In this document: positions 354-19,320 of the stretch, in pieces
Numbering within the stretch: position 1 is the first letter of the stretch
Layout: the number at the start of each line of letters is the position of its first letter
Source of the DNA: Egicoccus halophilus
GTDB taxonomy: Bacteria > Actinomycetota > Nitriliruptoria > Nitriliruptorales > Nitriliruptoraceae
DNA: 64,000 nucleotides
Direction: 5' to 3'
Assembly (NCBI RefSeq): GCF_004300825.1
Contig: NZ_CP036250.1
Location: forward strand, 496,001 to 560,000
The notes under the pieces: generated by a model
What the model was told of the DNA's origin: nothing
The model's database searches: none
The model's input: only the letters and a program-made list of their open reading frames with translations
Made by a program: the position numbers and the translations under genes

Positions 354-3155
354 CTACGGACGGTGCGACTGGGCGGCCATGCGGATGATCGCCTGGCGCT
401 CCGGTCGCGTCAGCACCCCGTCCCGGACCAGCTGCTGCGTGACCTGGCTGACGTGCGACACGAGCGCGCCGTGGCTGGGCCACGAGCGACCGTCGTCGAT
501 CCGCTCACCCGCGCAGTCCAGACCGCCCGCGGGGCGGTCCTGCACGCCGGTCGGCCTGCCGCCGACCGTGATGGTCCCGTCGCAGACCGGCGCGGTCGGT
601 TCCCCGGCCACACCCTCGCCCTGCGCCTCGAAGTAGTTCAGGACGAACAGGTCGTCGTCCTGGCCCGCTTCGTCGTTGGTGAAGACGAGGAAGAGCTCGA
701 AGGTCCGGCCCGGATCGGTGACGTCGACGGTGACGTCGGTCCAGCTGGTGTTCGCGCCGGTCGTCTCGACCGTCGCCGCCCCCAGCAGCTCGCCGTCGAC
801 CGCGTCCCTGCGGACCTCGATCGTCCCGCCGGGCCCGGCGGCCGCGACCCGGAAGGTCAGGGCGTCGATGTTGGCGAGGTGGACCGGGTCGAACGCGATC
901 CAGTCCCCGTCGTTGATGCTGGCGACCCGCTGGCCGCCGCCCTGCTGGCTGTCCTGGGCGTTCTGCGTCGTGATGCCCGAGCTGGCGGTGAAGTGCTGGG
1001 CCTGACGACGCATCGGGTTGAGCGTCGACTGGTCCTCACCGGTCAGACTCGGCAGGTTCGCCGCACCGAGGTCGGTGTAGCGCGCCGAGAGCAGCCACCA
1101 CAGGTTCATGTCCGCGCCGTGACCGCTCTCGAGCGGGGTGACGAAGCTGCCCTCGCAGCCGGACATGACCTCCATCGGGTGCGCGTGCGCGTCGTGCCCG
1201 AGCGCGCTCGAGATCCCGACCCGGTCGCAGTCGATCCGACCGTCCTCGCGGTCGGTCACCCGCACCACGTAGTCGATCTCGTCACCCCAGTCGAAGAAGC
1301 CGCCGTCGACCGGCCAGCGGACGTCGACCTCCGGAGCGGTGTTGCCGACCACCACGGTCACGCCGGCGCGGGCCGTGCGGCCCTGCTCGTCGGTCACCCG
1401 CAGGGTCGCGACGTAGCGGCCCGGCTCGGTGTAGGTGTGGGTCGGGTCCGCCTGGTCGGAGCCCGCGCCGTCGCCGAACTCCCAGTGGTAGCTGACGATG
1501 GAGGAGCCCTCCTCCGGGTGCATGCTGCCCTGGCTGGTGAAGGACACCTCCAGCGGCTGCTGCCCGGAGATCGGCTGCGCCGAGGCCCGGGCCACCGGGG
1601 GACGGCCGTCCGGGGCCCAGATCACCTGCGAGAGCTGGGCGTTGGGGTGCTCGACGAAGAACCCACCGCCGTACTCGAGGACGTAGAGCGACCCGTCGGG
1701 ACCGAACTCCATGTCCATCGGTGCCCGGAAGTCCCCGCGGGCGAGGAAGTCGCGGATGTCGGTGAGCTCGCCGTCCTGCGTGTGGAACTGCTTGAGGTAG
1801 TTGCGGGTCCACTCGTAGAAGAACGACACCCCGTCGTAGTACTCGGGGAAGGCGTAGGACGAGTCGACGTCCGGGTCGTAGCGGTAGACCGGGCCGCCCA
1901 TCGGGCCGCCACCGCCGCTCTCGAGCTCCGGGAACTCCTCCATGACCGTGTTGTTGTGGTACCAGACGTCGGCCGGGGTCACCGGCGGCAGCTGCTCCAG
2001 GCCGGTGTTGTTGGGCGAGTCGTTGACCGGTCCGCCCGCGCAGTCGAAGGGCGCACCGGACTCGCCGGTGGCGAAGTCGTACTCGACGTAGGCGAAGTTG
2101 TTGCCGATGCAGTATGGCCAGCCGACGTTGCGGGGCGAGTCGATCAGGTGCCAGGTGACCGTCGCCCGCGGACCGCGGTCGGGGTTGGGCTGGCTGGCGT
2201 CCGGACCGTAGTCACCGAGGTGGACGTGGCCGGTCGCCGGGTCGACCGAGAACCGGAACGGGTTGCGGAAGCCCATGGCGTAGATCTCGGGCAGGGCGAG
2301 CTCGGGGTCGTAGACCCCGTCGGGGAACAGGTGGTCCCACTCGCCGTCGTTGAACAGGTTGCCTTCGGGAACGGTGTACGAGCCGTCCTCCTGCACCGTG
2401 ATCCGCAGCAGCTTGCCGCGCAGGTCGGCGGTGTTGGCGGAGGTGCGCTGGGCGTCGTAGGCCGGGTTGCGGTGCTCGCGCTCGTCGATGGGCGCGTAGC
2501 CGTTGGACGCGAACGGGTTGGAGTCGTCACCGGTCGACAGGAACAGGTTGCCCTCGGCGTCGAACCCGATGTCCCCGCCGTTGTGGCAGCAGATGCCGCG
2601 GTTGATCGGGACCTCGAGGATGACCTGCTCGGAGGCGAGGTCGATGTAGGGGTTGACCGGGTCGTCGACGAACTGGAACCGGGACAGGTTGTTGTGCCCC
2701 AGGTAGTCGTCGAAGACGCTGGTGTCGCCACCGGGCTCGACCTGTTCGGGTGCGGCGCCCGACGGGAAGCCCTCGATGACCGGCGAGTAGTAGACGTAGA
2801 CCCAGCCGTTGTCCTCGAAGTCGGGGTCGACGGCGATGCCCTGCATGCCGTCCTCCGAGAAGGAGTAGACGGGCAGGCTGGTGATGATCCGCGTGGAGGC
2901 GGTCAGCGGGTCGTAGAGCCGGAACTGGCCCTGGCGGTTGGTGTGCAGGACACGGCCGTCGGGCAGCACGGCCATCGACATCGGCTCGCCGACCTCCGAG
3001 GTCAGCGTCACTTTCGCGAAGTTGTCCCAGTTCTCTGGATCCGGGGTGCCGGCGTCCTGTCCGCTGGCGGGTGTCGACGGCAGCATGGCCAGAGCCATGA
3101 CGGCGGCGACGAACATGCTGAGCACCGCAGACCATCGGTGTCTGCTGATCGACAT
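354..3155 (-). CDS. Secreted PQQ-dependent sugar (glucose/sorbosone) dehydrogenase with PKD and CBM6-like domains
   Basis: The protein has 933 residues. A signal peptide (about 1-31, ending near PASG) shows export. Residues about 40-470 form the soluble glucose/sorbosone dehydrogenase beta-propeller (motifs GMQGIAVDPDF, NRGICCHNGGDIGFD, GFRNPFRFSVDP), the family that oxidises aldoses with PQQ. A PKD domain (about 520-605, YHWEFGDG…PTHTYTEPGRY) and a CBM6-like carbohydrate-binding domain (about 715-842) follow. I infer it oxidises sugars at or near polysaccharide. The ATG at 3155 is chosen because AGGAG lies just upstream and the signal peptide begins there; a longer frame to 3200 lacks both. 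It is a single gene with its own promoter and terminator, downstream of a ROK repressor gene. Confidence 0.88.
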   Translation of the reverse strand: MSISRHRWSAVLSMFVAAVMALAMLPSTPASGQDAGTPDPENWDNFAKVTLTSEVGEPMSMAVLPDGRVLHTNRQGQFRLYDPLTASTRIITSLPVYSFSEDGMQGIAVDPDFEDNGWVYVYYSPVIEGFPSGAAPEQVEPGGDTSVFDDYLGHNNLSRFQFVDDPVNPYIDLASEQVILEVPINRGICCHNGGDIGFDAEGNLFLSTGDDSNPFASNGYAPIDEREHRNPAYDAQRTSANTADLRGKLLRITVQEDGSYTVPEGNLFNDGEWDHLFPDGVYDPELALPEIYAMGFRNPFRFSVDPATGHVHLGDYGPDASQPNPDRGPRATVTWHLIDSPRNVGWPYCIGNNFAYVEYDFATGESGAPFDCAGGPVNDSPNNTGLEQLPPVTPADVWYHNNTVMEEFPELESGGGGPMGGPVYRYDPDVDSSYAFPEYYDGVSFFYEWTRNYLKQFHTQDGELTDIRDFLARGDFRAPMDMEFGPDGSLYVLEYGGGFFVEHPNAQLSQVIWAPDGRPPVARASAQPISGQQPLEVSFTSQGSMHPEEGSSIVSYHWEFGDGAGSDQADPTHTYTEPGRYVATLRVTDEQGRTARAGVTVVVGNTAPEVDVRWPVDGGFFDWGDEIDYVVRVTDREDGRIDCDRVGISSALGHDAHAHPMEVMSGCEGSFVTPLESGHGADMNLWWLLSARYTDLGAANLPSLTGEDQSTLNPMRRQAQHFTASSGITTQNAQDSQQGGGQRVASINDGDWIAFDPVHLANIDALTFRVAAAGPGGTIEVRRDAVDGELLGAATVETTGANTSWTDVTVDVTDPGRTFELFLVFTNDEAGQDDDLFVLNYFEAQGEGVAGEPTAPVCDGTITVGGRPTGVQDRPAGGLDCAGERIDDGRSWPSHGALVSHVSQVTQQLVRDGVLTRPERQAIIRMAAQSHRP

Positions 3156-3182
3156 GCGCGCTCCTCTCCCTGGTAGACGCGA

Positions 3183-3230
3183 ATGACCCGTCGTAGCCAT
3201 ACCGACGGAAACGGATGACCCGTTGTGACC
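3183..3230. repeat. Imperfect direct repeat in the dehydrogenase 5' leader
   Basis: The octamer ATGACCCG occurs at 3183-3190 and again at 3215-3222, 32 bases apart (three helical turns). The following eight bases of each copy are also similar. Between them lies TTCCGTCGGT on the minus strand (3210-3201). The repeat lies between the predicted start site and the start codon and could bind a regulator. Confidence 0.35.
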
Positions 3231-3400: not shown

Positions 3401-4615
3401 TCAGCCGACGGCGACCGTGCGGCCCGCGGCCAGCTGCGCGTCCACCGCGGCGGGCGTGAGCAGGTGGTCGAGCACCAGGTTGGTCGCGCCGGTGATGCCC
3501 GCGTCCTCACCGAGCTGGCTGCGCACGATCTGCAGGCTGCGCGTCGCCAGCGGCAGGGAGCGGGAGTAGATCGACTCCCGCACGCCGGCGAGCAGCTGCT
3601 CGTCGACGGTCGCCATCCGGCCGCCGACCACGATCACGGCCGGGTTGAGCAGGTTGACCAGCCCGGCGAGGACGACGCCGAGCTGGCGGCCGGCGTCCCG
3701 CACGAGCGAGACGGCGTCCGCGTCGCCCTGGCGCACCAGCTCCACGACGTCGGCCGGGCGCTGTGCGGGGCGTCCGAGTGCGCGCAGCTCGCGGGCCAGC
3801 GCGCCACCCCCGGCGACCGCCTCGAGGCAGCCGACGTTGGAGCACGGGCACAGGACCTCCTCGGCGCCGGCCACGCGGATGTGGCCGATGTCACCGGCCG
3901 CGCCCTGCGCGCCGCGCCGGATGTGTCCGTCGACCACGATCCCGGCACCGATGCCGGTGCCCACCTTGACGAACAGCAGGTCGCGGACCCGGTCGCCCCA
4001 GATCTGTCCGTACTCGCCCAGGGCCATGATGTTGACGTCGTTGTCGACCAGCACCGGGACGTCGTACCGGCGGGCCAGGTGGTCACGGATCGGGAACTCG
4101 TTCCAGCCGGGCATGATCGGGGGGCTGACGGCCACGCCGCGCGCGAACTCCACGGGTCCGGGGACACCGAGGCCGATCCCGCGGACGTCGGCGTCCGGGC
4201 GCCCGACCTCCTCGAGCAGGGCGTCGAAGCACGCCAGCACCTCGCCGAGCACCGGCTCGGGGCCGTCGGCGACGTCGAGGTCGTGCACCCGCCGGGCGAG
4301 CACGCCACCGGCCAGGTCGGTCACCGCGGCGCGCACCAGCGTCGCGCCGACGTCGGCGACCAGCAGCATGCCGGCCTCGTGGTTGAAGCGCAGCGCCATC
4401 GGCGGCCGGCCCCCCGTCGACACGCCGGTCTCGACCTCGCGCACCAGCCCGCCGGCCATCAGCGGTTCCAGGCGCTGCGCGATCGTCGAGCGGGACAGAC
4501 CGGTGGCCTCGGCCAGGGCGGTGCGGGTGGAGGCGCGCCCGTCGACGATCAGCGAGAGCAGCTCGCCCGGCGAGCCCGGTGTGCGTCGTCCAGCCCGATC
4601 CCTGCCGACCGCCAT
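3401..4615 (-). CDS. ROK-family transcriptional repressor
   Basis: The protein has 404 residues. An N-terminal winged helix (about 14-60, …RTALAEATGLSRSTIAQRLEPL) is followed by a ROK domain with ATP-binding sugar-kinase-like motifs and the zinc-binding signature CPCSNVGCLEAVAGG near residue 255. ROK repressors (NagC, Mlc, XylR) bind sugar ligands and control sugar genes. The ATG at 4615 is the first start before the HTH; a frame to 4777 adds only low-complexity residues. It lies 183 bases after the last ebo-cluster gene and 245 bases before the dehydrogenase gene, all on one strand, so it may control either. It is similar throughout to the second ROK protein at 13251. A 13-bp direct duplication (GTCAGCCGACGGC) spans its stop codon. 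Confidence 0.88.
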   Translation of the reverse strand: MAVGRDRAGRRTPGSPGELLSLIVDGRASTRTALAEATGLSRSTIAQRLEPLMAGGLVREVETGVSTGGRPPMALRFNHEAGMLLVADVGATLVRAAVTDLAGGVLARRVHDLDVADGPEPVLGEVLACFDALLEEVGRPDADVRGIGLGVPGPVEFARGVAVSPPIMPGWNEFPIRDHLARRYDVPVLVDNDVNIMALGEYGQIWGDRVRDLLFVKVGTGIGAGIVVDGHIRRGAQGAAGDIGHIRVAGAEEVLCPCSNVGCLEAVAGGGALARELRALGRPAQRPADVVELVRQGDADAVSLVRDAGRQLGVVLAGLVNLLNPAVIVVGGRMATVDEQLLAGVRESIYSRSLPLATRSLQIVRSQLGEDAGITGATNLVLDHLLTPAAVDAQLAAGRTVAVG

Positions 4616-4798
4616 GCCTCGCCCGTCCTCCGGCGGGCGACCGTCCCCTGGCCGCCCCGCGCGAGCGTAAGCCAGGTGACCGGCCCACCCGTCGGGAACG
4701 TTGCCGGAGTCCGACCAGATGCCGACAGGCCGCACGCTTCGGCGTGAAAACCACGAGAAGTCGACGGTCTTTCGCAACTCGGTCGGCAGAAGCCGGGT

Positions 4799-6184
4799 TC
4801 AGGGCGTCGGCGCCGGGCCTCCTGAGATCTCCAGCAGCAGGTCGGCCACGTCGGTGGCGGCGAAGCGGTCACGACCGAACCGTGCATCGCTGCACAGCAG
4901 GACCGGACCGTCGTCGTCGATGTCGGGCAGACGCCCGTGGGAGCCGCGTACGTGCGAGGGATCGAGCGGGACGACGTCGAGTACCCCGCGGAAGCCGAGC
5001 TTGCGTCGGGCGAGCGTCAGGGCGGCGCGCGGCCTGGCCAGGCGGTCGTCAGGGTCGAAGAACAGCTCTGCGGGGTCGTAGCCGGGCTTGCGGTGGATCT
5101 CGACCGTCGCGGCGAAGTCGGGGGCGCGCTCCTCGTCGAGCCAGTAGCGGTAGGTGAACCACGCCCCCGGCTCGGCCACGACGACCAGGTCTCCCGCGCG
5201 GGGATGATCGAGCCCGGCCGCCCGCTTGCCGTCGGCGTCGAGCACCTCGTCGACCCCGTCGATGCCGCGCAGCAGGCCGGCGACCCGGGCGACGTCGTCG
5301 GGGCGGTCGACGTAGACGTGGGCCACCTGGTGGTCGGCGACCGCGAACGCCCGCGACGTCCACGGGTCGAGGTACTCCATGCCCTGCTGCTCGTGGACGT
5401 GGAGGAGTCCCGCCCGGCGCAGGTGCTGGTTGAGGTCGACCGGGCGGTCGACGGCGGTGATGCCGTACTCGGAGACCACGACCACCGTCGCGCCGCCCTC
5501 CCGGGCCTCCTCGGCGAGCCGGCCGGCGACCTCGTCGATGTCGCTGGCGGCGCGCAGCACCCGCGGGTCGTCGGGGCCGTAGCGCTGCAGGTCGTAGTCG
5601 AGGTGGGGCAGGTACACCAGCAGCAGGTCGAGGGCCTCCGTGCGCAGCACGTGCCGGGCGGCGTCGGCGATCCACCGGGAGGAGGTCAGGTCCGCCGTCG
5701 GGCCCCAGTACTGGAACAGCGGGAACGGCCCCAGCTCGCGGGTCAGGTCCCGGCGCAGCTCCGGGGGCCAGGTGTAGCAGTCGGGCGACTTGCGGCCGTC
5801 GGCGTGGTAGACCGGCCGCGGCGTCAACGTCAGGTCGGTGCTGGCACCCATCGCGTACCACCAGCCGAGGTTGGCGGAGCGGTGGTCGGGCCGGGCGCGT
5901 CGGGCCCGCTCCCAGACCTTCTCGCCCTGGACCAGGGCGTTGTGCTGCCGCCAGAACAGCACCTCGCCGAGGTCGCGGAAGTACCAGCCGTTGCCGACCG
6001 CCCCGTGATCGCGTGGCAGACGGCCGGTGAGGAAGGTCGACTGCACGGTGCAGGTCACGGCCGGGAGCACCGTGTCGAGCGGCGCCGCGAAGCCGTCGCG
6101 GGCCAGGGCCCGCAGCCGCGGCATGGACTGCAGCAGGGTCGGGGTCAGTCCGACGACGTCGAGTACGACGACGGGCGTGGTCAT
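4799..6184 (-). CDS. Alkaline-phosphatase-superfamily phosphodiesterase, EboF-like
   Basis: The 461-residue cytosolic protein belongs to the nucleotide pyrophosphatase/phosphodiesterase branch of the alkaline phosphatase superfamily. It opens with the metal-binding VVVLDVVGL and the nucleophile region PAVTCTVQSTFLTG, and has later metal ligands in VVVVSEYG and DHPRAGDLV. This type of enzyme is the last member of ebo clusters in many bacteria (EboF). Its natural substrate is unknown. ATG 6184 overlaps the stop of the preceding gene (ATGA), so it is translationally coupled; starting at 6202 would break this arrangement. It is the distal gene of a seven-gene operon. Confidence 0.82.
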   Translation of the reverse strand: MTTPVVVLDVVGLTPTLLQSMPRLRALARDGFAAPLDTVLPAVTCTVQSTFLTGRLPRDHGAVGNGWYFRDLGEVLFWRQHNALVQGEKVWERARRARPDHRSANLGWWYAMGASTDLTLTPRPVYHADGRKSPDCYTWPPELRRDLTRELGPFPLFQYWGPTADLTSSRWIADAARHVLRTEALDLLLVYLPHLDYDLQRYGPDDPRVLRAASDIDEVAGRLAEEAREGGATVVVVSEYGITAVDRPVDLNQHLRRAGLLHVHEQQGMEYLDPWTSRAFAVADHQVAHVYVDRPDDVARVAGLLRGIDGVDEVLDADGKRAAGLDHPRAGDLVVVAEPGAWFTYRYWLDEERAPDFAATVEIHRKPGYDPAELFFDPDDRLARPRAALTLARRKLGFRGVLDVVPLDPSHVRGSHGRLPDIDDDGPVLLCSDARFGRDRFAATDVADLLLEISGGPAPTP

Positions 6185-7341
6185 GGGGCCTCCGAGGTGC
6201 ATCCCCGCGCGAGCAGGGCGTCGCGGGTCCAGGCCAGCTCCCGCGCGAGCGCGTCGGCGAGCTGGACGTCGGTCGTGGGGCGCTCGCCGGGCGGGAGCAC
6301 CGTCCAGGTGTAGGTCTCGACCTCGAGGTGGGAGGTCAGCGGTGCCGCGCCGCCGACCACCTCGTCGAGGACCGCCTCGAGCACGTCACGGGTGGTGCCC
6401 TCGGCGCGGTGGACCGGGACGTGGACGTGCGAGCGCCACTGCGGCCCCGTCGGCAGGCCACCGCGCAGGGCTTCCGGCAGGTCGTCGGTTCCCAGCACCG
6501 TGCCGGTGGCGTCGACGGCGCGCGTCTGGTGCAGGAAGCGCGGCTCGGCGTAGCGGGCCAGGCGGTCGTGGTGCTCGTCGGCGGAGCCGCCCGGGGAGCG
6601 CAGCGCGTTGGCGACCTGGAGCTTGACCACCGGGCAGCCGGCCTCGCGCAGCCGTCGCGCCACCGTGGCCGGGTCCTCGAACTCCACGGCGAGGTGACAG
6701 GCGTCGAGCGAGACCCCGATGGCCTGGTGACCGAGCTCGGCGACCCACTCGGTGACCGCGAGCGCGGTGTCGAGCGTGCAACCGGGCTCGGGTTCCAGGC
6801 CGAGGCGGATGCGGCGGCCGGTGCGCTCGGCGAGCTCGTCGAGCCGTTGGCCGACCTCCCGCAACGCGCGGGCCGCGGCGGCCCGCCCGTCGGCGTCGAG
6901 CCAGGCCCGCCACCCGAGCGGCAGCGTGGAGATCGACCCCTCGGCCACGTCGCCGGGCAGCAGGTCGGCGAGCACGGTGGCGACGTCGAGGGTGTAGGCG
7001 AGGCGGCGCGGGTCCGCCCAGTCGGGTCGGTACACCTCGCGCTTGACGACCGGCGCGTGGAAGGCGGCGTACGGGAACGCGTTGCACGTGACGATCTCGA
7101 CGCCGGCGTCCGTGAGGCGTCGGGCGAAGGCGGCGCGAGCGGTGTCGTCGCGGCACAGCGCGGCGGCGGCCGGTGCGGCCAACCACAACCCGACGCCGAT
7201 CGAGGGCACCGCGAGGTGCGTCCGCAGTCGGGCCGCGATGCCCTCGAGCCGGTCCGCGACCGCGGTCGCGGACTCCTCGGCGTGCACGTTGCTGCAGTAG
7301 GCCAGGTGCAGGGTCGAACCGTCGCGGGCACGCAGCCGCAT
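6181..7341 (-). CDS. eboE: EboE-like TIM-barrel protein (metabolite traffic protein EboE)
   Basis: The 386-residue protein is a xylose-isomerase-like TIM barrel. The N-terminal HLAYCSNVHAEES is characteristic of EboE, with further barrel motifs NAFPYAAFH, LGLEPEPGC (metal-ligand glutamates) and VSLDACHLAVEFED. In cyanobacteria the ebo genes are needed to move a scytonemin precursor to the periplasm; the biochemical activity of EboE is unknown. ATG 7341 shares one base with the TGA of the TatD gene (TGATG), so the genes are coupled. Earlier in-frame starts fall inside the TatD gene and are rejected. Confidence 0.82.
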   Translation of the reverse strand: MRLRARDGSTLHLAYCSNVHAEESATAVADRLEGIAARLRTHLAVPSIGVGLWLAAPAAAALCRDDTARAAFARRLTDAGVEIVTCNAFPYAAFHAPVVKREVYRPDWADPRRLAYTLDVATVLADLLPGDVAEGSISTLPLGWRAWLDADGRAAAARALREVGQRLDELAERTGRRIRLGLEPEPGCTLDTALAVTEWVAELGHQAIGVSLDACHLAVEFEDPATVARRLREAGCPVVKLQVANALRSPGGSADEHHDRLARYAEPRFLHQTRAVDATGTVLGTDDLPEALRGGLPTGPQWRSHVHVPVHRAEGTTRDVLEAVLDEVVGGAAPLTSHLEVETYTWTVLPPGERPTTDVQLADALARELAWTRDALLARGCTSEAP

Positions 7342-8204
7342 CAGGCCGGCCGCTCGCCACGCAGCACCGAGTTGCCCGCGAAGGTCGCCGTGCGGTCGGT
7401 CGCGACCGCGTCGAGTTCGAGTCGGCCGGAGCGTGCGTACACCTCGACCGGGTTGGTCCACACGACCTGCTCGATCGCGGCCGCGTCGAAGCCCGCCTCG
7501 CGCATCGCCGCCGCCGTCTTGGGCACCTTCAGCGGGTCACTGCGGCCCCAGTCGGCGGCCGAGTTGACCAGCATGCGTTCGGTGCCGTGCTCCTGCAGCA
7601 GCCGCACCATCCGCGCCTCGTCCATCTTGGTGTCGGGGTAGATGGAGAAGGCCGCCCAGCAGCCGGCGTCGCGCACCAGGTCGACGGTGAGCTCGTTGTT
7701 GTGGTCGACGATCACGTCGGCCGGGTCGATCCCGGCCTCGCGCACCACGTCGAGGGTCCGGCGCGTCCCGGCCAGCTTGTCGCGGTGCGGGGTGTGCACC
7801 ATCACCGGCAGCCCGTGCGCACGGGCGAGCTCGAGCTGGGCAGCGAGCGCCTCGTCCTCGCCCGGGGTGACGCTGTCGTAGCCGACCTCGCCGACGGCCA
7901 CGACGCCGTCCTTGGCGAGGTAGCGCGGCAGGACCTCCAGCACGTCACGGCGCAACCCCGGGTCGTTGGCCTCCTTGGGGTTGAGCGCGATGGTGCAGTG
8001 GTGCACGATCCCGAACTGCGAGGCCCGGAACGGCTCCCAGCCGAGCAGGCCGTCGAAGTAGTCCAGGAAGCTGCCGACGTTGGTGCGTGGTTGCCCGAGC
8101 CAGAACGCCGGCTCGACCAGCGCGGCGACACCGGCGGCGGCCATGGCCTCGTAGTCGTCGGTGGTGCGGGAGGTCATGTGGATGTGGGGGTCGAACAGGC
8201 GCAT
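7341..8204 (-). CDS. eboB: TatD-family metal-dependent hydrolase, EboB-like
   Basis: The 287-residue protein has the amidohydrolase-fold metal motif DPHIHM at residues 5-10, a central VAVGEVGYD, MVHTPHRDK (metal histidine) and VDHNNE. TatD relatives are nucleases or hydrolases; the ebo-cluster member EboB has no assigned reaction. AGGAGG lies 7 bases before ATG 8204. It starts 13 bases after the EboA stop, the only real gap in the operon. Confidence 0.85.
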   Translation of the reverse strand: MRLFDPHIHMTSRTTDDYEAMAAAGVAALVEPAFWLGQPRTNVGSFLDYFDGLLGWEPFRASQFGIVHHCTIALNPKEANDPGLRRDVLEVLPRYLAKDGVVAVGEVGYDSVTPGEDEALAAQLELARAHGLPVMVHTPHRDKLAGTRRTLDVVREAGIDPADVIVDHNNELTVDLVRDAGCWAAFSIYPDTKMDEARMVRLLQEHGTERMLVNSAADWGRSDPLKVPKTAAAMREAGFDAAAIEQVVWTNPVEVYARSGRLELDAVATDRTATFAGNSVLRGERPA

Positions 8205-8217
8205 GGCGGCCTCCTGA

Positions 8218-8979
8218 TCAGCGGTCGAGCGTGCGGTGGCGCAGGGCGGCGCGGGCCGCCTGTCGGCGGTCGGGCACCGGGTGGTCGAGTTCCGCGGTGA
8301 TGGCGGCCAGCTGCTGCGCGGGCGGATGGCGGTCGATCAGCGACCAGATCCCTGCGGGCACGTCGCGTCCCGCGGCCACCCGCTCGTGCACGTAGCCGGC
8401 GAGCATCCGGGACAGTTCCGGGTCGGTGCGCTCGTCGAGGCCGGCGACCCCGTCGAGTGGCAGTCCGACGAACACGGCCTTGAGCACCGCCTGGCGATAG
8501 GCGTGGTCGTCGAGGCGTGCCGCGGCGACGGGTCCGAGTGCGGCGGCGACCAGCCGCAGGTCGTTGGTCCGCAGGGCGTCGTCGACCAGTGCCAGCCCCG
8601 CGTCGGCCAGCGGCAGGTACGGCAGGGCCCGCAGGACCCCGCGACGCTCGGGCGCGTCCCCGAAGCGGTACAGCGACGCGAGCTCGTCCTCGACCGCGGG
8701 ACCGAGGGCGACCAGCAGTGCGGTCCGGCCGGCGTCCTCGACCTGCCAGGCGAAGGGATCGTGTGGGTCACCCGTCGGGTCGAGCGGGCCACGACCGAGC
8801 TCCCGGCCCACGGCCGGGAAGCGGGTGCGGACGGCCGTCGGGTCGGTACGCATCGCGCTCACGGCCGCCTCGAGGCGCGCCAGGGCGTCGGGCGCGAGAC
8901 GGTGACGCAGGGTCGCGAGCCGTTCGGCCGGGTCGAGCAGCGGCGCAGGTGGCGTGGCGGCGGACGCTGGTTCGTTCAT
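8218..8979 (-). CDS. eboA: EboA-domain protein
   Basis: The 253-residue protein is rich in helix, with an EboA-like core: RFPAVGRELGRGP, TALLVALG, LYRFGDAPERRGVLRALPYLPL, LRTNDLRLVAAALGP and the end HPVPDRRQAARAALRH. The function of EboA is unknown; it may be an adaptor of the ebo pathway. ATG 8979 overlaps the stop of the upstream isomerase gene (ATGA). No membrane segment or signal peptide is visible. The assignment rests on these motifs together with five recognisable ebo neighbours. Confidence 0.82.
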   Translation of the reverse strand: MNEPASAATPPAPLLDPAERLATLRHRLAPDALARLEAAVSAMRTDPTAVRTRFPAVGRELGRGPLDPTGDPHDPFAWQVEDAGRTALLVALGPAVEDELASLYRFGDAPERRGVLRALPYLPLADAGLALVDDALRTNDLRLVAAALGPVAAARLDDHAYRQAVLKAVFVGLPLDGVAGLDERTDPELSRMLAGYVHERVAAGRDVPAGIWSLIDRHPPAQQLAAITAELDHPVPDRRQAARAALRHRTLDR

Positions 8980-9830
8980 CTCCGTGCGACCTCCCGGTCG
9001 GCCGCTCGCAACGCGGCGATCGCCTGCGGGACCATCGTGTGGGCGGTGTGGCCGTGGCGTGGCAGTTCGACGGCGACCAGCCCGCGGTAGTCGATGTCGT
9101 GCAGGGCGGACAGCGCCGCGGGGAGGTCGAGCTCGCCCTCCCCGAAGGGCAGGTGCTCGTGCACGCCGCGACGCATGTCCTCGATCTGCACGTGCCGCAG
9201 CACGTCGGCCATGGCGAGGATCCCGTCGGCGACGGGTGCGTCCTCGAGGCACACCCCGTGGCCGAGGTCGTAGGTGAGACCGAGCCGCGGGTGCTCGCCG
9301 AGCTCCTGGCGCAGACGTCGGAAGCCCGCAAGCCGGTCGAGCAGCATGCCGGGTTCGGGCTCGACGGCCAGCGTCACCCCGCTGCGCTCGGCGTGCGTGA
9401 GCAGGTCGGCGACGCCGGCGACCAGTCGGGACCAGGCGAGCGCGGAGGGGGTGCCGGCCGGGGTCCGTCCCGACCACAGGTGCACGACGTCGCTGCCGAG
9501 CTCGGCGGCCACGTCGATCGCGGTGTGCAGCAGCGCGAGTCGCCGGTCGCGTCCGGCGGCGTCGTGCAGCAGGGTCGGCTCGTGCTTGCGGGCAGGGTCG
9601 AGCACGAAGCGTCCACCCGTCTCGACCGCCACGGCCAGTCCGTGTGCCTCGAGCTCGCGGCGCACGGCCCGCACCCGGACGGCGAGGTCGTCGGCGAGCG
9701 GGTCGAGGTGGGCATGGTCGAGGGTGAGTGCCACGCCCGTGTAGCCGTGCTCGGCGAGCAGGTGCAGTGCCTCGCCCAGCCGGTGGTCGCTCAGACCGTT
9801 GGTGCCGTAGGCGAACGTCAGCCCGCTCAC
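8976..9830 (-). CDS. Sugar phosphate isomerase/epimerase (xylose isomerase-like TIM barrel)
   Basis: The 284-residue TIM-barrel protein is of the AP-endonuclease-2/IolE-IolI family. The metal-site glutamate lies in TLAVEPEPGMLLDR, with LTYDLGHGVCLED, HVQIEDMRRGVHEHLPFGEGELD and LVAVELPRHGH following. These motifs fit a divalent-metal isomerase or epimerase acting on a sugar or cyclitol. GTG 9830 overlaps the stop of the prenyltransferase gene (GTGA). It is a second TIM-barrel gene in the operon besides EboE, and its place beside an inositol-phosphate synthase suggests it acts on the cyclitol or a derivative (inference). Confidence 0.82.
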   Translation of the reverse strand: MSGLTFAYGTNGLSDHRLGEALHLLAEHGYTGVALTLDHAHLDPLADDLAVRVRAVRRELEAHGLAVAVETGGRFVLDPARKHEPTLLHDAAGRDRRLALLHTAIDVAAELGSDVVHLWSGRTPAGTPSALAWSRLVAGVADLLTHAERSGVTLAVEPEPGMLLDRLAGFRRLRQELGEHPRLGLTYDLGHGVCLEDAPVADGILAMADVLRHVQIEDMRRGVHEHLPFGEGELDLPAALSALHDIDYRGLVAVELPRHGHTAHTMVPQAIAALRAADREVARR

Positions 9831-10708
9831 GTCACCGACCGCCGTCGGGCCAGTCGGTGCGCCAACGGCCACAGCGCGGTCAACGCCGCGCCGGCCAGGC
9901 GCGGACCGCGTGCGAGCGTCAGGGCGCCCTGCAGCGGAACGAAGCCGAGCACGCTGGTACCGACCAGGCGCTGGGCGGTCGCGGGCGTGGGCTCGCGCAC
10001 GGCGGCGCCGGCGGCACGCACCTGCACGGCGGCGTGGGCGACCAACGGCAGCAGGCCGAGCGCGCGGCGTCCGGGGCGGGCCCGCCAGAACGCGAGATGG
10101 GCGGTCGCGGCGGTCGCGAGCAGTCCGGCCAGCGCGGCGCCACGCACGACGTCGGGCCGCCCACCGGTCGTCTCGTGGCGGCTGACCGTGGTCAACGCGT
10201 AGGTGTGCAGGCCGATCGCGGCGGCGGCGGGCGCCGCCCGGCGCGGCGACCCGAGGGAGGCGCCGAGCAGCACGTCGAGCGTGCGGCAGGCACTCATCGC
10301 CAACGGGCCGGCGGCGGTGTTCTTCAGCCCGAGGTCGTAGGCCGCGACGGCGCCGGCCAGCGGCAGGGCGACGGCCACGGACCGACGCCCGCCGGCCGCG
10401 GCCAGGCCGACACCGGCGCCGAGCAGGCCCAGCGCGAGACGGCGCGCCAGCGGCAGCGGGACGCGTCCGGACGGGATCGGACGGTGCGGCCGCTCGTCGC
10501 GGTCGACGTCCACGTCGGCGACGTCGTTGAGGGCCATGCCGCCGAGGTAGAGCAGGCAGGAGGCGCCGGCGAGCGCCGCGGTGCGGGCCGCAGGCGGCCG
10601 GTCGGTGGCGAGACTGGCGCCCGCCAGGACGTCGCCGGGGACGCTGAGCACCGCGGGGAGTCGGACGAGGTCGGCCAGGTCGGCGGCCGTGGCCCGGGTC
10701 GGGCTCAC
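9827..10708 (-). CDS. eboC: UbiA-family prenyltransferase, EboC-like
   Basis: The 293-residue integral membrane protein has the UbiA aspartate-rich motif NDVADVDVDRDERPHRPIPSG near residue 59, and a second Asp motif region at YDLGLKNTAAGP…CRTLDVLLG. About eight hydrophobic helices follow. Enzymes of this family join a prenyl chain to an acceptor; actinobacterial relatives are sometimes called SCO3242-like. In the ebo cluster EboC is thought to anchor a cyclitol or sugar-derived group to a lipid. GTG 10708 overlaps the stop of the inositol-phosphate synthase gene (GTGA). Confidence 0.82.
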   Translation of the reverse strand: MSPTRATAADLADLVRLPAVLSVPGDVLAGASLATDRPPAARTAALAGASCLLYLGGMALNDVADVDVDRDERPHRPIPSGRVPLPLARRLALGLLGAGVGLAAAGGRRSVAVALPLAGAVAAYDLGLKNTAAGPLAMSACRTLDVLLGASLGSPRRAAPAAAAIGLHTYALTTVSRHETTGGRPDVVRGAALAGLLATAATAHLAFWRARPGRRALGLLPLVAHAAVQVRAAGAAVREPTPATAQRLVGTSVLGFVPLQGALTLARGPRLAGAALTALWPLAHRLARRRSVT

Positions 10709-11838
10709 GCCGCGGCCCACCGCTCGAGCGCGAGCAGTTGGGTCGCGAAGGCATGGTCGTCGCTGCCGACCGGGTCCTTGAAGAAGTAGGCCAGTGGGGT
10801 CAGCGCACCCGACTCGCCGCGCGAGAGCGCCAGCGAGGTCAGCCGGGCGAGATCGAGCACCAGCGGTGCCGCCAGCGTGGAGTCGCAGCCCTGCCAGGTC
10901 AGCTGCAGCGACATCGCGGTGCCGAGGAAGCCGGCGAAGGAGATGTGGTTCCAGGCCGTCTTCCACTCCCCGAGGTCAGGGACGCAGTCGATGTGGACGG
11001 TCTGGTGCACGTCCTCGCCGAGGAGGTTGGCGACGGTGCGCCCCTTGCTCGCCAGCTTGCTGGCGGCGTGCTCCGGGTCGGCGAGCCGGGCGCCGTCACC
11101 GCCACCGAGGAGGTTGGTGCCCGACCACGAGCGCACCGTCAGGTTGCGGTGGGCGAACATCGGCGCGAGCACCGACTTGAGCAGCGTCTCACCGGTCTTG
11201 CCGTCGCGGCCGGCGACCGGCAGTCCGGTGGCGCGGGCCCGGGCGAGCACCGCGGGAGCGGTGAGCGCCGCACCCGGGGTGAAGTCGACGTAGGCCGCGC
11301 CGGCATGCAGGGCCGCCAGGGTGGCGACCAGGCTCGGCGGGCAGCTCGACCAGTCGTCGAGCGCGACCTCGAGGGCGTCGTCGTCCACCGGCGGGATCGT
11401 CCAGGCGGGCGGCGCCTCGGTCGAGGCGAGGTTGATCACGATCAGTTGCGCCAGCGCGTGCTCGCGCCGGAATCGCTCGAGGTCGCGCACCATGGCCTCG
11501 ATCGCGGTGCGGGGCGGCACCTCGCCCGGGGCGGCACAGCGGTGGATGCGGGCCTCGATCTCGATCAGCCGGTCGACCACCACGCCCGGGAGGACGCTCG
11601 GGAGCACGCCGGCTCCGGCGAGCCGTTCGGCCTGCTTGACCAGCGGGAGCTCGCCCACGTCCTGCCCACCGAAGACGAAGCGGTCGACGTCGGGCAGGTG
11701 GTCGGCCGGGAACCCCGGCGTCGCGGTGACCATGCCTTGCGCCGTCGCGGCCCCGGCGCCGAGTGCCGCCGCGCCCACCATCGCGGTCGTGGCGACCGAG
11801 CCGCGACCGCCGACGAGCCAGATCCCGATGTCTCCCAC
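10705..11838 (-). CDS. Inositol-3-phosphate synthase
   Basis: The 377-residue enzyme converts glucose 6-phosphate to myo-inositol 3-phosphate with bound NAD. Visible features are the NAD-binding GGRGSVAT (residues 10-17), INLASTEAPP, VDFTPGAAL, the active-site region GRDGKTGETLLKS with APMFAHRNL and SWSGTNLLGG, and late HISFAGFLGTAMSLQLTW. It is the first gene of the ebo-type operon, where other clusters often carry EboD, a different kind of sugar phosphate cyclase. GTG 11838 is preceded by GGAGAG about 8 bases upstream. It could instead supply general inositol, but its overlap with the prenyltransferase gene argues for a dedicated role. Confidence 0.87.
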   Translation of the reverse strand: MGDIGIWLVGGRGSVATTAMVGAAALGAGAATAQGMVTATPGFPADHLPDVDRFVFGGQDVGELPLVKQAERLAGAGVLPSVLPGVVVDRLIEIEARIHRCAAPGEVPPRTAIEAMVRDLERFRREHALAQLIVINLASTEAPPAWTIPPVDDDALEVALDDWSSCPPSLVATLAALHAGAAYVDFTPGAALTAPAVLARARATGLPVAGRDGKTGETLLKSVLAPMFAHRNLTVRSWSGTNLLGGGDGARLADPEHAASKLASKGRTVANLLGEDVHQTVHIDCVPDLGEWKTAWNHISFAGFLGTAMSLQLTWQGCDSTLAAPLVLDLARLTSLALSRGESGALTPLAYFFKDPVGSDDHAFATQLLALERWAAA

Positions 11839-11978: not shown

Positions 11979-12920
11979 TCAGTAGTTCAGGCAGCTCAGG
12001 TAGTCGATGCTGCGCTGTGCGGTCTCGAACGCGTCGGCAGGGAAGTCCTGCTCGACGACGTAGAGCCGCACGTTGCCCTGGGCGGCCTGGAAGACGGCCG
12101 TCCAGTCGACGACACCGTCACCGACGGGCACCCACGAGTGGCTGCCGTTGGCGTTCCAGACCAGGTCCTTGACGTGCAGCAGTTCGATGCGGTCGCCGAA
12201 CCGCTCGAGCAGCTCGACGCTGTCCTCGCCGGCGGCCTCGGCCCAACCGACGTCGAGCTGGAAGGTGACCCAGCGCGGGTCGGTGTTCTCGACCAGCAGC
12301 TGCCAGGCGCTCTTGAGCGTGCCGTCGCCCTGGGCGTCGACGTACATGGTCGTGAACTCGTTGGCGTGGTTGTGGCCGAAGACCTTGCCGGTGCCGTTGC
12401 GCACGGAGCGCTGCCCGAGCCGGTTGAGGGTCTCGGCGGTGGCCAGCACGTTCTCGTAGCTACCGATGCCCGGTGAGGCGAAGCCGCCCGAACCGGTCCA
12501 GCGCTGGTTGAACATCCGGGCCTGGGCCAGCTGCGTGTCCCAGTTCGCCTCGTTGGTGCTGCCGTGGCGGCTGCGGATGCGCAGGTGCAGGCTGTCGGCG
12601 AGCTCCTTGAACTCGGTGGCCGACAGGCCGTGGTAGTTGTAGGGCTCGATGTTGCGGTAGCCCATCCGCGACAGCTCGGTCAGCACGTGTTCGATGCCGT
12701 GCTGGTTGATCGCGCTGTTGAACGTCCACAGCTGGATCGACACGTGGTTGAGCGGCACGCCCCGGCCGCAGGAAGCGGCATGGGCGGGCCGGTTGCCGTT
12801 GGCGCGCTCGGGGGCGGCGGCCTCGGCGGAAGCGGTGGTGCTCAGCGTCATCGCCAGAGCGAGACCCAGGGCGAACAGGCCCAGCCAGGCCCGTCGCAGG
12901 GCCGATGTCGCGGTCGTCAT
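11979..12920 (-). CDS. Secreted sugar phosphate isomerase/epimerase-like TIM-barrel protein
   Basis: The 313-residue protein starts with a signal peptide (about 1-33; RRAW, a hydrophobic run, then ASAEA). The mature part is a xylose-isomerase-like barrel: VSIQLWTFNS, GYRNIEPYNYHGLS, YVDAQGDGTL, QLDVGWAEAAG (metal ligand), LLHVKDLVW and WVPVGDGVVDW. Exported members of this family are common beside sugar dehydrogenases and importers; the substrate is unknown. ATG 12920 has GGGAGGA 8 bases upstream; the frame continues to 13055 but crosses the leader. It is divergent from a ROK regulator gene and probably controlled by it. Confidence 0.83.
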   Translation of the reverse strand: MTTATSALRRAWLGLFALGLALAMTLSTTASAEAAAPERANGNRPAHAASCGRGVPLNHVSIQLWTFNSAINQHGIEHVLTELSRMGYRNIEPYNYHGLSATEFKELADSLHLRIRSRHGSTNEANWDTQLAQARMFNQRWTGSGGFASPGIGSYENVLATAETLNRLGQRSVRNGTGKVFGHNHANEFTTMYVDAQGDGTLKSAWQLLVENTDPRWVTFQLDVGWAEAAGEDSVELLERFGDRIELLHVKDLVWNANGSHSWVPVGDGVVDWTAVFQAAQGNVRLYVVEQDFPADAFETAQRSIDYLSCLNY

Positions 12921-13019
12921 CGTGTGTTCCTCCCAGAGACGTGCAGGTGCATCGAAGGTCCTCTCCATGCACGTGACGGCGGGTCTCCCACCCGTGCCGA
13001 TCCGACTCGCCGTCACGTG

Positions 13020-13046
13020 AACTTCGGTCAGTTGACGGCCGAAGTT
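13020..13046. promoter_or_regulatory. Inverted-repeat operator at the epimerase promoter
   Basis: AACTTCGG (13020-13027) and CCGAAGTT (13039-13046) form a perfect 8-bp inverted repeat with an 11-base spacer. It overlaps the -10 box and start site of the predicted epimerase promoter, as a repressor site would. Within it TTCGGTCAGTTGAC (13023-13036) matches 12 of 14 bases of 13228-13241 in the promoter of the divergent ROK gene. Confidence 0.5.
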
Positions 13047-13072
13047 ATGCCACATTGAAAGCGCAAGGTCAA
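13044..13072 (-). promoter_or_regulatory. Predicted promoter of the secreted epimerase gene
   Basis: On the minus strand TTGACC (13072-13067) and CATAAC (13049-13044) are separated by 17 bases. The local sequence is AT-richer than its surroundings. It would give a leader of roughly 120 bases before ATG 12920. Confidence 0.5.
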
Positions 13073-13204
13073 CGCCAGATGGTCACAATGAGGCAGGGCC
13101 AGCAGGGGAGAGGGGGGTCCTTCGGGCGGCCTGCCCGGTTCTACCTGCCCAGATCGTCGAGTCGGCGGTCGTGTCGAAGGGACTTGCAATCCCGACCAGC
13201 GCAT

Positions 13205-13250
13205 CTTTTGTTCTTGACAGACGGAAGTTCGGTCGGTTAACACTACGCCC
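13205..13250 (+). promoter_or_regulatory. Predicted promoter of the ROK gene, probably leaderless
   Basis: TTGACA (13214-13219) and TTAACA (13237-13242) are 17 bases apart. The -10 box ends 8 bases before the ATG at 13251, so transcription would begin at or next to the start codon; no ribosome site is present. CTTTTGTT-CTT-GACA (13205-13219) is shared with the dehydrogenase promoter. TTCGGTCGGTTAAC (13228-13241) is shared with the epimerase operator. Confidence 0.55.
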
Positions 13251-14453
13251 ATGAGCGACGCCACCACGACCGTGCGACCGCCGATGCCCGCACCGGGTTC
13301 GGCAGGTCACCTGCTGCAGTTGCTGCGCGACAGCGACGCCTGCACGCGGCCGCAGTTGGTCGAGCTCAGCGGCATCTCGCGGTCAGCCGTCAGCCAGCGG
13401 ATCGAGGCGCTGCTCGCTGCCGGCCTGGTGGTCCAGGACGGGGCAGGTGCCTCGACCGGTGGACGCCCCGCGGTCCGCCTCCGGTTCCACCACGAGAACG
13501 GGCTCGTGCTGGTCGCCGACCTCGGTGCCACCCATGCGCAACTGGCCGTCACCGACCTCGCCGGGACGGTGCTGGCCGAGCAGGCCGAGAACTGGGCCGT
13601 GGCCGACGGGCCGGAACCCGTGCTCGACGCCGTCCGGGCGTGCTTCGACGCCCTGCTCACCCGGATCGGCCGGAGCCGCGACGAGGTCCGGGGCATCGGT
13701 ATCGGTCTGCCCGGACCGGTCGAACACGGCTCGGGGCGGGCGGTCTCCCCGCCGATCATGCCGGGCTGGGACGGCTTCCCCGTGCCCCGGCACTTCGCCG
13801 ACTTCGACGTGCCGGTCCTGGTCGACAACGACGTCAACATCATGGCGCTCGGGGAGTACTGGACCGCCTGGCGCGCACAGGTCGACGACCTGCTGTTCAT
13901 CAAGGTCGGCACCGGCATCGGCTGCGGCGTGATCGCGTCCGGTCGGGTGCATCGTGGCGCGCAGGGGGCGGCCGGCGACATCGGCCACGTCCGGGTCCCC
14001 GACGCCGACCACGCACTGTGCCGGTGCGGCAACACCGGCTGCGTCGAGGCGGTCGCCGGTGGGCAGGCCATCGCCGACCGGTTGCGCGCGCTGGGCCGCG
14101 ACGCGCACGACGCCCGTGACGTGGTGGCGCTGGTCAAGGCCGGTGACCGCGAGGCGACCCGGGCCGTGCGCGAAGCCGGCCGGGAGCTCGGTCGGGTGCT
14201 GGCCGCGGCCGTCAACTTCTTCAATCCCGCCGTCATCGTCATCGGCGGGGACCTGGCGAACGCCCACGAGCAACTGCTCGCGGGCGTCCGCGAGGTCGTC
14301 TACCGACGTTCCCTGCCACTCGCGACGCGCCACCTCCGGGTGGTGCCCGCGCAGGAAGGGGAACGGGCCGGGATCACCGGGGCGAGCGCCATGGTGCTCG
14401 CCGAGGTGCTCGCGCCCTCGGCGGTCGACCGCCTCGTCAACGGGGTGACCTGA
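13251..14453 (+). CDS. ROK-family transcriptional repressor
   Basis: The 400-residue protein has an N-terminal winged helix (about 17-62, …PQLVELSGISRSAVSQRIEAL), then a ROK domain with VLVADLGAT, GIGIGLPGPV, VDNDVNIMALGE, FIKVGTGIGCGV and the zinc motif CRCGNTGCVEAVAGG near residue 257. It is close to the ROK protein at 3401-4615, including PPIMPGW and VDNDVNIMALGEY, so the two are paralogues. It precedes a sugar-type ABC importer and is divergent from a secreted epimerase gene. The natural inference is that it represses these genes and is relieved by the imported sugar or its phosphate. Confidence 0.9.
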   Translation: MSDATTTVRPPMPAPGSAGHLLQLLRDSDACTRPQLVELSGISRSAVSQRIEALLAAGLVVQDGAGASTGGRPAVRLRFHHENGLVLVADLGATHAQLAVTDLAGTVLAEQAENWAVADGPEPVLDAVRACFDALLTRIGRSRDEVRGIGIGLPGPVEHGSGRAVSPPIMPGWDGFPVPRHFADFDVPVLVDNDVNIMALGEYWTAWRAQVDDLLFIKVGTGIGCGVIASGRVHRGAQGAAGDIGHVRVPDADHALCRCGNTGCVEAVAGGQAIADRLRALGRDAHDARDVVALVKAGDREATRAVREAGRELGRVLAAAVNFFNPAVIVIGGDLANAHEQLLAGVREVVYRRSLPLATRHLRVVPAQEGERAGITGASAMVLAEVLAPSAVDRLVNGVT

Positions 14454-14459
14454 CGACTG

Positions 14460-14492
14460 CAGGACCCGGAGCCTCGAGCGCTGCGGGTCCTG
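14460..14492 (+). terminator. Hairpin after the ROK gene
   Basis: A 9-bp inverted repeat, CAGGACCCG (14460-14468) with CGGGTCCTG (14484-14492), lies just after the ROK stop codon. It may end the ROK transcript or attenuate read-through to the importer genes. Confidence 0.5.
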
Positions 14493-14534
14493 GCCGAACC
14501 ATCCGCACCGGCGGAACCAACAGGGAGATACGGG

Positions 14535-15641
14535 ATGCGCAGGACACGAGTGAGGGGTCGACTGTTCGCCATGGGCGCCGCGACCACGTTGGCGCTCGCC
14601 GCGTGCGGCGGCAACGGCGGCGACGGCGGGAACGGCGGCGACGGCCAGGACACCGCCGGAACCGGTGGCGAGGAGGGCGGGGAGGCTGCGGCCGGTCCGT
14701 TCACCATCGGCGTCAGCAACGGGTTCACCGGCAGTGAGTGGCGGACCCAGATGATCGCCAACATCGAGGAGGTCTTCGCCGAGTACGAGGAGCAGGGACT
14801 CGTCGACGAGCTCATCATCGAGAGCGACGACGTCGACGAGGCGGGGCAGATCGAACAGATCCGCAACCTCGTCAACCAGGGCGTCGACGCGATCATCATC
14901 AACCCGAACTCGCCCGACGCGCTCAACGCGGCGTTCGAGGAGGCCGCGGCGGAGGGCGTGAACATCTACGCCGTGGACCAGGCCGTGACCAGCGAGGCCG
15001 TCCGCAACATCGTCATCGACCAGTCGGAATGGGCGCAGATCAGCGCCGAGTGGCTCGCCGAGGAACTCGGTGAGGGTGCCCAGATCGTCGGCGTCAACGG
15101 CATCGCCGGCCACCCTGCCAACGAGGCCCGCTGGGGCGGCGCGCAGGAGGTCTTCGAGGAGCACGGCATCGAGGTCGTGGCCCAGGGCAACGCCAACTGG
15201 AGCCAGGCCGAGGGCCAGACCGTCATGCAGGAGCTGCTCGGCCAGTACGGCGACACGATCGACGGGGTGTGGGCGCAGGACGGCGTCGCCGAGGGCGTGC
15301 TGCGGGCCCTGATCGACGAGGACCGCCTCGACATCACCACCACCGGTGAGGCCCGCGCCGGGTACCTGCGGCTGTGGGACGAGGCCGGGATCGACACCAT
15401 CGGCGTGGTGAACCCGCCGGGTGTCGGCGCCACGGCGCTGCGCTTCGCGCTGCTCGAGCTCCAGGGCGAGTCGATCGACGAGTCGCAGCTCGAGAACGGC
15501 AACACGGTCTTCCTGCCGCTGCCCGACTCGGTCACCAGCAGCGAGCTCGACGCGTGGCTCGCCGACGTCGAGGGGCAGCCCGACGGCTACTCCGTCGACG
15601 TGATCCTCTCCGAGGACGAGGTCCGCGACTACCTGCAGTAG
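14535..15641 (+). CDS. Sugar ABC transporter substrate-binding lipoprotein (RbsB-like)
   Basis: The 368-residue lipoprotein has a signal peptide ending in the lipobox LAAC (Cys about residue 24). A Gly/Asn/Asp-rich linker follows, then a type 1 periplasmic-binding fold (IGVSNGFTGSEWRTQM, QGVDAIIINPNSPDALN, VDQAVTSEAV). It binds the sugar outside the membrane and delivers it to the permeases encoded downstream. Acidic residues dominate (many E/D), as is common for extracellular proteins of salt- or alkali-tolerant bacteria. GGGAG precedes ATG 14535. The ligand cannot be told from sequence; a ribose, inositol or similar monosaccharide type is typical of the family. Confidence 0.88.
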   Translation: MRRTRVRGRLFAMGAATTLALAACGGNGGDGGNGGDGQDTAGTGGEEGGEAAAGPFTIGVSNGFTGSEWRTQMIANIEEVFAEYEEQGLVDELIIESDDVDEAGQIEQIRNLVNQGVDAIIINPNSPDALNAAFEEAAAEGVNIYAVDQAVTSEAVRNIVIDQSEWAQISAEWLAEELGEGAQIVGVNGIAGHPANEARWGGAQEVFEEHGIEVVAQGNANWSQAEGQTVMQELLGQYGDTIDGVWAQDGVAEGVLRALIDEDRLDITTTGEARAGYLRLWDEAGIDTIGVVNPPGVGATALRFALLELQGESIDESQLENGNTVFLPLPDSVTSSELDAWLADVEGQPDGYSVDVILSEDEVRDYLQ

Positions 15642-15650
15642 TCGCACGAC

Positions 15651-15694
15651 GGGGCACCGGTGCCGCATCCCACCCACCGCGCCACCGGTGCCCC
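15651..15694 (+). terminator. Attenuator hairpin between binding protein and ATPase genes
   Basis: A perfect 12-bp inverted repeat (15651-15662 with 15683-15694) with a 20-nt loop lies between the binding-protein gene and the ATPase gene. Such intra-operon hairpins commonly stabilise or partly terminate the message so that the binding protein is made in excess. Confidence 0.6.
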
Positions 15695-15759
15695 GCCATC
15701 CTCCTCCTGCCCGGCAGCCGCCGTCGTCGACGACGACGGCGTGAGCGACGGAGCCCCTG

Positions 15760-17273
<1,514 letters not shown>

Positions 17274-17277
<4 letters not shown>

Positions 17278-19297: not shown

Positions 19298-19320
19298 AAC
19301 GCGAGGGAACGGAGACTGGT

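Follow-up and report, generated by a model that had tools for sequence, protein, structure and literature searches.

The 64,000-nucleotide stretch of Egicoccus halophilus DNA analysed here, referred to below as the window, sits in a 3.98-Mb single-contig actinobacterial genome. On its minus strand, from position 11838 down to 4799, it carries an ebo-type operon of seven genes in the order MIPS-EboC-TIM-EboA-EboB-EboE-EboF, where MIPS denotes an inositol-3-phosphate synthase and TIM a TIM-barrel sugar isomerase/epimerase-like protein (Table 1). Matches to family profiles bear out the identities given to these seven genes in a preliminary description of the DNA, which had also counted six of seven junctions as overlapping; this was a miscount, since seven genes form six junctions, of which five overlap. 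The overlaps are 4 bases long at MIPS/EboC, EboC/TIM, and TIM/EboA, 1 base long at EboB/EboE, and 4 bases long at EboE/EboF (GTGA, GTGA, ATGA, TGATG, and ATGA, respectively), and the sole non-overlapping junction, EboA/EboB, is a 13-base gap. For EboF, the start at 6184 is more likely than the one at 6202.

Table 1. Genes of the ebo-type operon and its conserved neighbour in the window, and related clusters on haloarchaeal plasmids
Feature	Position	Strand	Remarks
Inositol-3-phosphate synthase (MIPS)	10705..11838	-	PF07994/PF01658; GTG start; cyclase in EboD's place
EboC-type UbiA prenyltransferase, SCO3242 family	9827..10708	-	NF045897, 283.8 bits (cut-off 260); 4-base overlap with MIPS
TIM-barrel sugar isomerase/epimerase-like (xylose-isomerase-like)	8976..9830	-	PF01261, 146 bits
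EboA, all-helical	8218..8979	-	NF035938, 157 bits (cut-off 50)
EboB, TatD-like metal-dependent hydrolase	7341..8204	-	PF01026
EboE, TIM barrel	6181..7341	-	NF035939, 370 bits (cut-off 250)
EboF, alkaline-phosphatase superfamily	4799..6184	-	PF01663, 229 bits
GSDH-type sugar dehydrogenase beta-propeller, probably secreted, neighbour	354..3200	-	PF07995, PKD, CBM_6
Haloarchaeal-type plasmid cluster	L138:5109-11659
Haloarchaeal-type plasmid cluster	L139:5244-11545
Haloarchaeal-type plasmid cluster	L147:3936-10609

A variant of the ebo cluster

The operon unites EboE, an EboA-domain protein, a TatD-like EboB, and a PF01663-type EboF with a UbiA-type EboC, as does the ebo cluster described in cyanobacteria, Bacteroidota, and eustigmatophyte plastids (PMC5133447, PMC6282210). 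It differs from the described clusters in that the E. halophilus genome is devoid of EboD, the sugar phosphate cyclase of the naming paper (PMC5133447), and has MIPS and an extra TIM barrel instead, and in that its EboC belongs to the SCO3242 subfamily. Since some of the ebo clusters described so far likewise lack EboD, the operon is a variant rather than a canonical member.

A genome-wide search for the dehydroquinate synthase (DHQS) family detected no EboD anywhere in the E. halophilus genome. The single gene of this family comes after a shikimate kinase gene, on account of which we assign it to AroB. Furthermore, the genome encodes a second, general MIPS at 812 kb, so that the operon MIPS is not the only source of inositol. 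An EboD elsewhere in the genome and an operon MIPS serving as the cell's sole inositol source, both named in the preliminary description as findings that would speak against its proposal, were thus looked for and rejected.

According to the naming paper, a few genomes with ebo genes are without EboD, and there are actinobacterial EboA proteins fused to a xylose-isomerase-like protein; inositol is not mentioned there (PMC5133447). In Streptomyces coelicolor, SCO3243 and SCO3242, which bear consecutive numbers and are given as a myo-inositol phosphate synthase and a putative transferase, are counted among the genes of the CDA cluster, with no ebo-linked function (PMC3610822); SCO3242 is the namesake of the NCBI family that holds the operon EboC. 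We found no description of a MIPS-bearing ebo cluster in the open literature searched, subscription papers lying outside this search. The MIPS-type variant is therefore new to the literature searched, and the ebo kind of cluster is already known.

Distribution of the two cyclases

In a survey sample of 396 actinobacterial genomes, where EboE was scored by the NF035939 cut-off, 17 genomes encode an EboE above the cut-off, and 16 of them have the full gene order of the window, because of which the arrangement is well beyond chance. The 17th genome (G381) has EboD in its locus (L028), from which MIPS and TIM are both absent. A profile of the operon MIPS gave 16 matches at 544 to 595 bits in the same sample, all inside ebo loci, and detected no MIPS of the operon clade outside ebo loci in the 396 genomes (next best match, 312 bits). 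Chance adjacency of the operon MIPS and the ebo genes is thereby ruled out (Fisher exact P = 1.3e-27 for the association of operon MIPS with EboE, relatedness among the genomes being ignored). When the class of G381 was searched, one further ebo genome was found, G526, which belongs to the same family and is of the MIPS type, so that the two versions alternate within one family. Genome G269 has a degenerate ebo locus (L041:5600-10640) with a split EboC and a truncated EboE and without MIPS or TIM.

A scan of named genomes yielded 80 loci, all of them actinobacterial, in genera including Streptomyces, Amycolatopsis, Saccharothrix, Kribbella, Microbacterium, Arthrobacter, Agromyces, Nocardiopsis, and Actinomadura. 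Taken together with 18 survey loci and the window, the complete seven-gene order is present in 66 of 99 loci, most of the remaining ones being either truncated at a contig end or MIPS-less copies in Streptomyces. MIPS-bearing clusters also occur beyond the Actinomycetota. A plasmid of Gemmatirosa kalamazoonensis (Gemmatimonadota) carries EboB-EboF-EboC-MIPS-TIM with EboE pointing away and without EboA or EboD, and haloarchaeal plasmids (Halobaculum, Halocatena, and Natronococcus) carry ebo-like clusters of EboB, TIM, EboC, TIM, MIPS, and EboF, in which TIM is present twice while EboA, EboD, and a true EboE are missing. MIPS, EboC, and TIM adjoin one another in actinobacteria and in Gemmatirosa.

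EboD-type clusters were found in Deinococcus, Aureibacter, Azospirillum, Salipiger, Roseivivax, Ketogulonicigenium, and Mycetohabitans, and the clusters of these seven genera lack MIPS and contain nothing that scores above 150 bits against the TIM profile. Among the loci scored, TIM stands alongside MIPS in 45 of 45 and alongside EboD in none of 10, and the two cyclases never share a locus; as these loci are a non-random sample with many related members, the counts show a pattern and not a rate. The extra isomerase noticed in the preliminary description is thus real and strictly tied to MIPS. Its proposal that a cyclase of a different fold has taken the place of EboD is strongly supported as well, by the mutual exclusion, the absence of EboD from the genome, the separate general MIPS, and the recurrence of the pattern across Actinomycetota, Gemmatimonadota, and haloarchaea. 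We consider it highly probable that MIPS plus TIM constitute a non-orthologous replacement of EboD.

TIM pairs with MIPS outside ebo clusters too, as seen from a separate cluster of MIPS and a close homologue of the ebo TIM (326 to 373 bits) without ebo genes (L149:7650-16816, L151:7575-16276, L148:7752-14804, and L160:6082-7273), which in Roseomonas and Hymenobacter also contains YcaO, Gfo/Idh, and PIG-L deacetylase genes.

Predicted properties and phylogeny of the operon proteins

The operon MIPS has both domains of its family, PF07994 and PF01658, and its closest solved relatives are the Archaeoglobus fulgidus MIPS and the mutants N255A, K278A, and K367A of that enzyme. In an alignment, A. 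fulgidus N255, K274, K278, K306, D332, and K367 correspond to N242, K261, K265, K293, D319, and K354 of the operon MIPS, and these six active-site residues are invariant in 16 operon MIPS; N255, K278, and K367 are known from the solved mutants, and the other positions we take to be active-site residues from the alignment and from general knowledge of the family. A structural model of the operon MIPS (pLDDT, 86.6) has a TM-score of 0.90 to the A. fulgidus enzyme. The latter, an inositol-1-phosphate synthase (1u1i), is therefore like the operon MIPS in fold and in the compared active-site residues, but the two share 31% identity, and the operon MIPS is dedicated to the ebo operon in a genome with a separate general MIPS. 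It is not of the mycothiol-type INO1, scoring 37 bits against TIGR03450 (cut-off, 638). From its sequence and model, the operon MIPS is very likely catalytically competent, with glucose 6-phosphate as its putative substrate.

In the MIPS tree, a long, fully supported branch (100/100) parts the ebo-type MIPS of actinobacteria, Gemmatirosa, and haloarchaea from general and other MIPS; two Halomarina MIPS without any ebo gene nearby also fall on the ebo side. This separation, and the fact that the fold family includes Ari2 (6k96), a synthase of a five-membered cyclitol phosphate in aristeromycin synthesis, could mean that the operon MIPS uses another sugar phosphate, in which case the ring would not be inositol and the replacement of EboD would still hold. 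We deem this unlikely, however, since the operon MIPS is far closer to the Archaeoglobus MIPS (E = 8e-54) than to Ari2 (E = 8e-11; TM-score, 0.66) and keeps the six compared positions.

EboC contains the PF01040 domain and the motif NDxxDxxxD and is a member of the UbiA superfamily. It scores 137.6 bits against the equivalog NF035940, below the cut-off of 250, and passes the cut-off of the related family NF045897. Its closest solved relative is digeranylgeranylglyceryl phosphate (DGGGP) synthase (6m31; 5e-21), from which it differs in that its gene lies among cyclase and isomerase genes. DGGGP synthase attaches its prenyl group to a polyol phosphate through an ether bond.

In the TIM protein, E157, E159, D188, H191, and E255 are invariant, and the E/D/H/E residues are typical of the isomerase family; its nearest solved structures are MJ1311, UlaE, and IolI. 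The nearest solved match of EboE, a weak one, is also IolI, so that both barrels resemble this inosose isomerase. EboA is modelled as a helical protein (pLDDT, 88.6), for which a fold search against the PDB returned no significant match. EboB has AF_1765 as its nearest solved structure and scores 36 bits against the TatD nuclease model TIGR00010 (cut-off, 206). In EboF, the presumed nucleophile T44 is invariant, whereas the D-H metal pair of the SDHG motif, kept as D-H in NPP7, reads E239-Y240 in all 17 EboF proteins compared. The canonical D-H ligands of two-metal phosphodiesterases are thus absent from EboF, which renders the phosphodiesterase annotation doubtful; EboF may not be an ordinary two-metal phosphodiesterase. 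The E-Y pair is found in EboF of both cluster types.

The number of changes in cyclase type needed to explain each protein tree is one for EboC, three for EboB, and two each for EboF and EboE, and the additional changes in the latter three trees stem from the Gemmatirosa copies, which cluster with EboD-type proteins. A test framed after the first trees had been seen rejects, for EboB (P = 7e-71) and for EboF (P = 0.015), that the bacterial MIPS-type proteins form one clade. In terms of sequence relationships, these results fit an exchange of cyclase, isomerase, and prenyltransferase as one module, which would argue for a link between the cyclase product and EboC; that EboC alone tracks the cyclase is moderately supported.

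Conserved neighbour and proposed pathway

The GSDH-type protein encoded next to the operon combines PKD and CBM6 domains with an apparent signal peptide. A homologue is present near ebo genes in 42 of 116 loci searched, and among 12 genomes with 31 GSDH-type matches in about 76 Mb, one lies within about 3 kb of the cluster in nine, where random placement would lead one to expect well below one. In Nostoc, each ebo deletion tested traps the scytonemin monomer in the cytoplasm, and it is for Nostoc only that a requirement of ebo for metabolite export to the periplasm has been shown (PMC6282210). The probably secreted GSDH-type neighbour recalls the periplasmic ScyE of this ebo-linked pathway, a parallel which, by analogy, supports an export role of the cluster. 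A gene of the ScyD/ScyE family (NHL repeat) was also observed outside cyanobacteria, directly before MIPS of the ebo cluster in Streptomyces camelliae (L168:10680-11882).

EboD has a dehydroquinate-synthase fold and is thought to use sedoheptulose 7-phosphate. In the pathway that we infer for the MIPS-type operon, the dedicated MIPS would cyclise glucose 6-phosphate in place of EboD, and the TIM-barrel isomerase would adjust the ring so made. EboC would then prenylate the cyclitol, most likely at a hydroxyl group through an ether bond, as DGGGP synthase does, to give a prenyl-cyclitol membrane lipid that EboB, EboE, and EboF would process, with EboA as a possible scaffold. Such a lipid might act as a carrier or cofactor by which a metabolite moves from the cytoplasm to secreted enzymes, e.g., the neighbouring GSDH-type protein. 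We are evenly divided over the scheme in its full form, in which the operon makes a prenylated cyclitol that serves metabolite export. A prenyl-linked inositol for envelope transport, as put forward in the preliminary description, is plausible by analogy, because the nearest relative of EboC is DGGGP synthase and the published role of ebo is export, while the signalling role suggested alongside it is without support. More tentatively, and with less confidence than in the scheme itself, Actinobacteria, some Gemmatimonadota, and haloarchaea might make an undescribed lipid, a prenyl ether of inositol or of a derivative, as a transmembrane metabolite carrier, with EboD-type clusters making a corresponding lipid whose ring comes from a seven-carbon sugar.

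The ebo cluster is widespread, and Nostoc depends on it for the export of scytonemin. Two unrelated and mutually exclusive cyclases point to a cyclitol core of the ebo product, and the inositol version makes the idea testable by inositol labelling, defined lipid extraction, and the use of well-studied Streptomyces hosts.

Several points weigh against the pathway as drawn. The MIPS product is phosphorylated and that of EboD-type enzymes is expected to be unphosphorylated, so that later steps may differ between the cluster types. Support for the single split in the EboC tree is moderate (70/73 with haloarchaea and 93 without), and once the haloarchaeal sequences are removed, the Gemmatirosa EboC takes a position between the two cyclase groups. 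For EboE, one common clade of the bacterial MIPS-type proteins is not rejected (P = 0.18). Streptomyces genomes harbour second ebo copies without MIPS; of 14 genomes with a MIPS-less ebo locus, 13 encode an operon-type MIPS elsewhere, which in six of the eight regions inspected is part of a second ebo cluster. Finally, 8-hydroxyquinaldic acid was farnesylated in vitro by the homologous EboC of a flavobacterial ebo cluster, a finding in favour of an aromatic acceptor. That study, which examined EboC proteins, Saccharomonospora included, and reported quinoline farnesylation by marine Bacteroidota enzymes, assayed aromatic acceptors and no cyclitols (PMC9235831).

This farnesylation of aromatic quinolines also speaks for another route, in which the TIM barrels and EboB would dehydrate the cyclitol to an aromatic or quinone-like ring that EboC would C-prenylate; the resulting redox lipid might work with the secreted dehydrogenases encoded nearby. 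Such a route would agree with the kinship of both TIM barrels to enzymes of inositol catabolism and with the GSDH-type proteins beside the cluster, of which the one in Natronococcus has a plastocyanin/azurin-like copper domain. However, the MIPS product has no ketone for such dehydrations and the conserved operon contains no dehydrogenase, the Gfo/Idh-like gene of the window (near 19.3 to 20.6 kb) having no homologue in 98 loci searched, and we regard this route as quite improbable. Less probable still is that MIPS is an extra inositol source in an operon for sugar uptake or catabolism, as the ROK regulators, sugar-binding ABC protein, and further TIM barrel flanking the operon, the sugar ABC genes near Azospirillum and Salipiger ebo loci, and the ABC transporter in Halocatena might suggest, since such neighbours vary between loci while the seven-gene core is constant, other MIPS-type loci adjoin nonribosomal peptide synthetase genes (on two Streptomyces plasmids) or the ScyD/ScyE-like gene, and sugar catabolism offers no evident role for a prenyltransferase.

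Among the MIPS-less second ebo copies, which occur in Streptomyces and Lentzea (L025, L103, L058, L067, and L070), eight from Streptomyces have a conserved FAD-dependent oxidoreductase-like gene upstream. In the window, the region upstream of the operon (11979-20586) encodes a TIM-barrel protein with an apparent signal peptide, a ROK regulator, a sugar-binding ABC protein, and transporter proteins, and a second ROK gene is located at 3401-4777.

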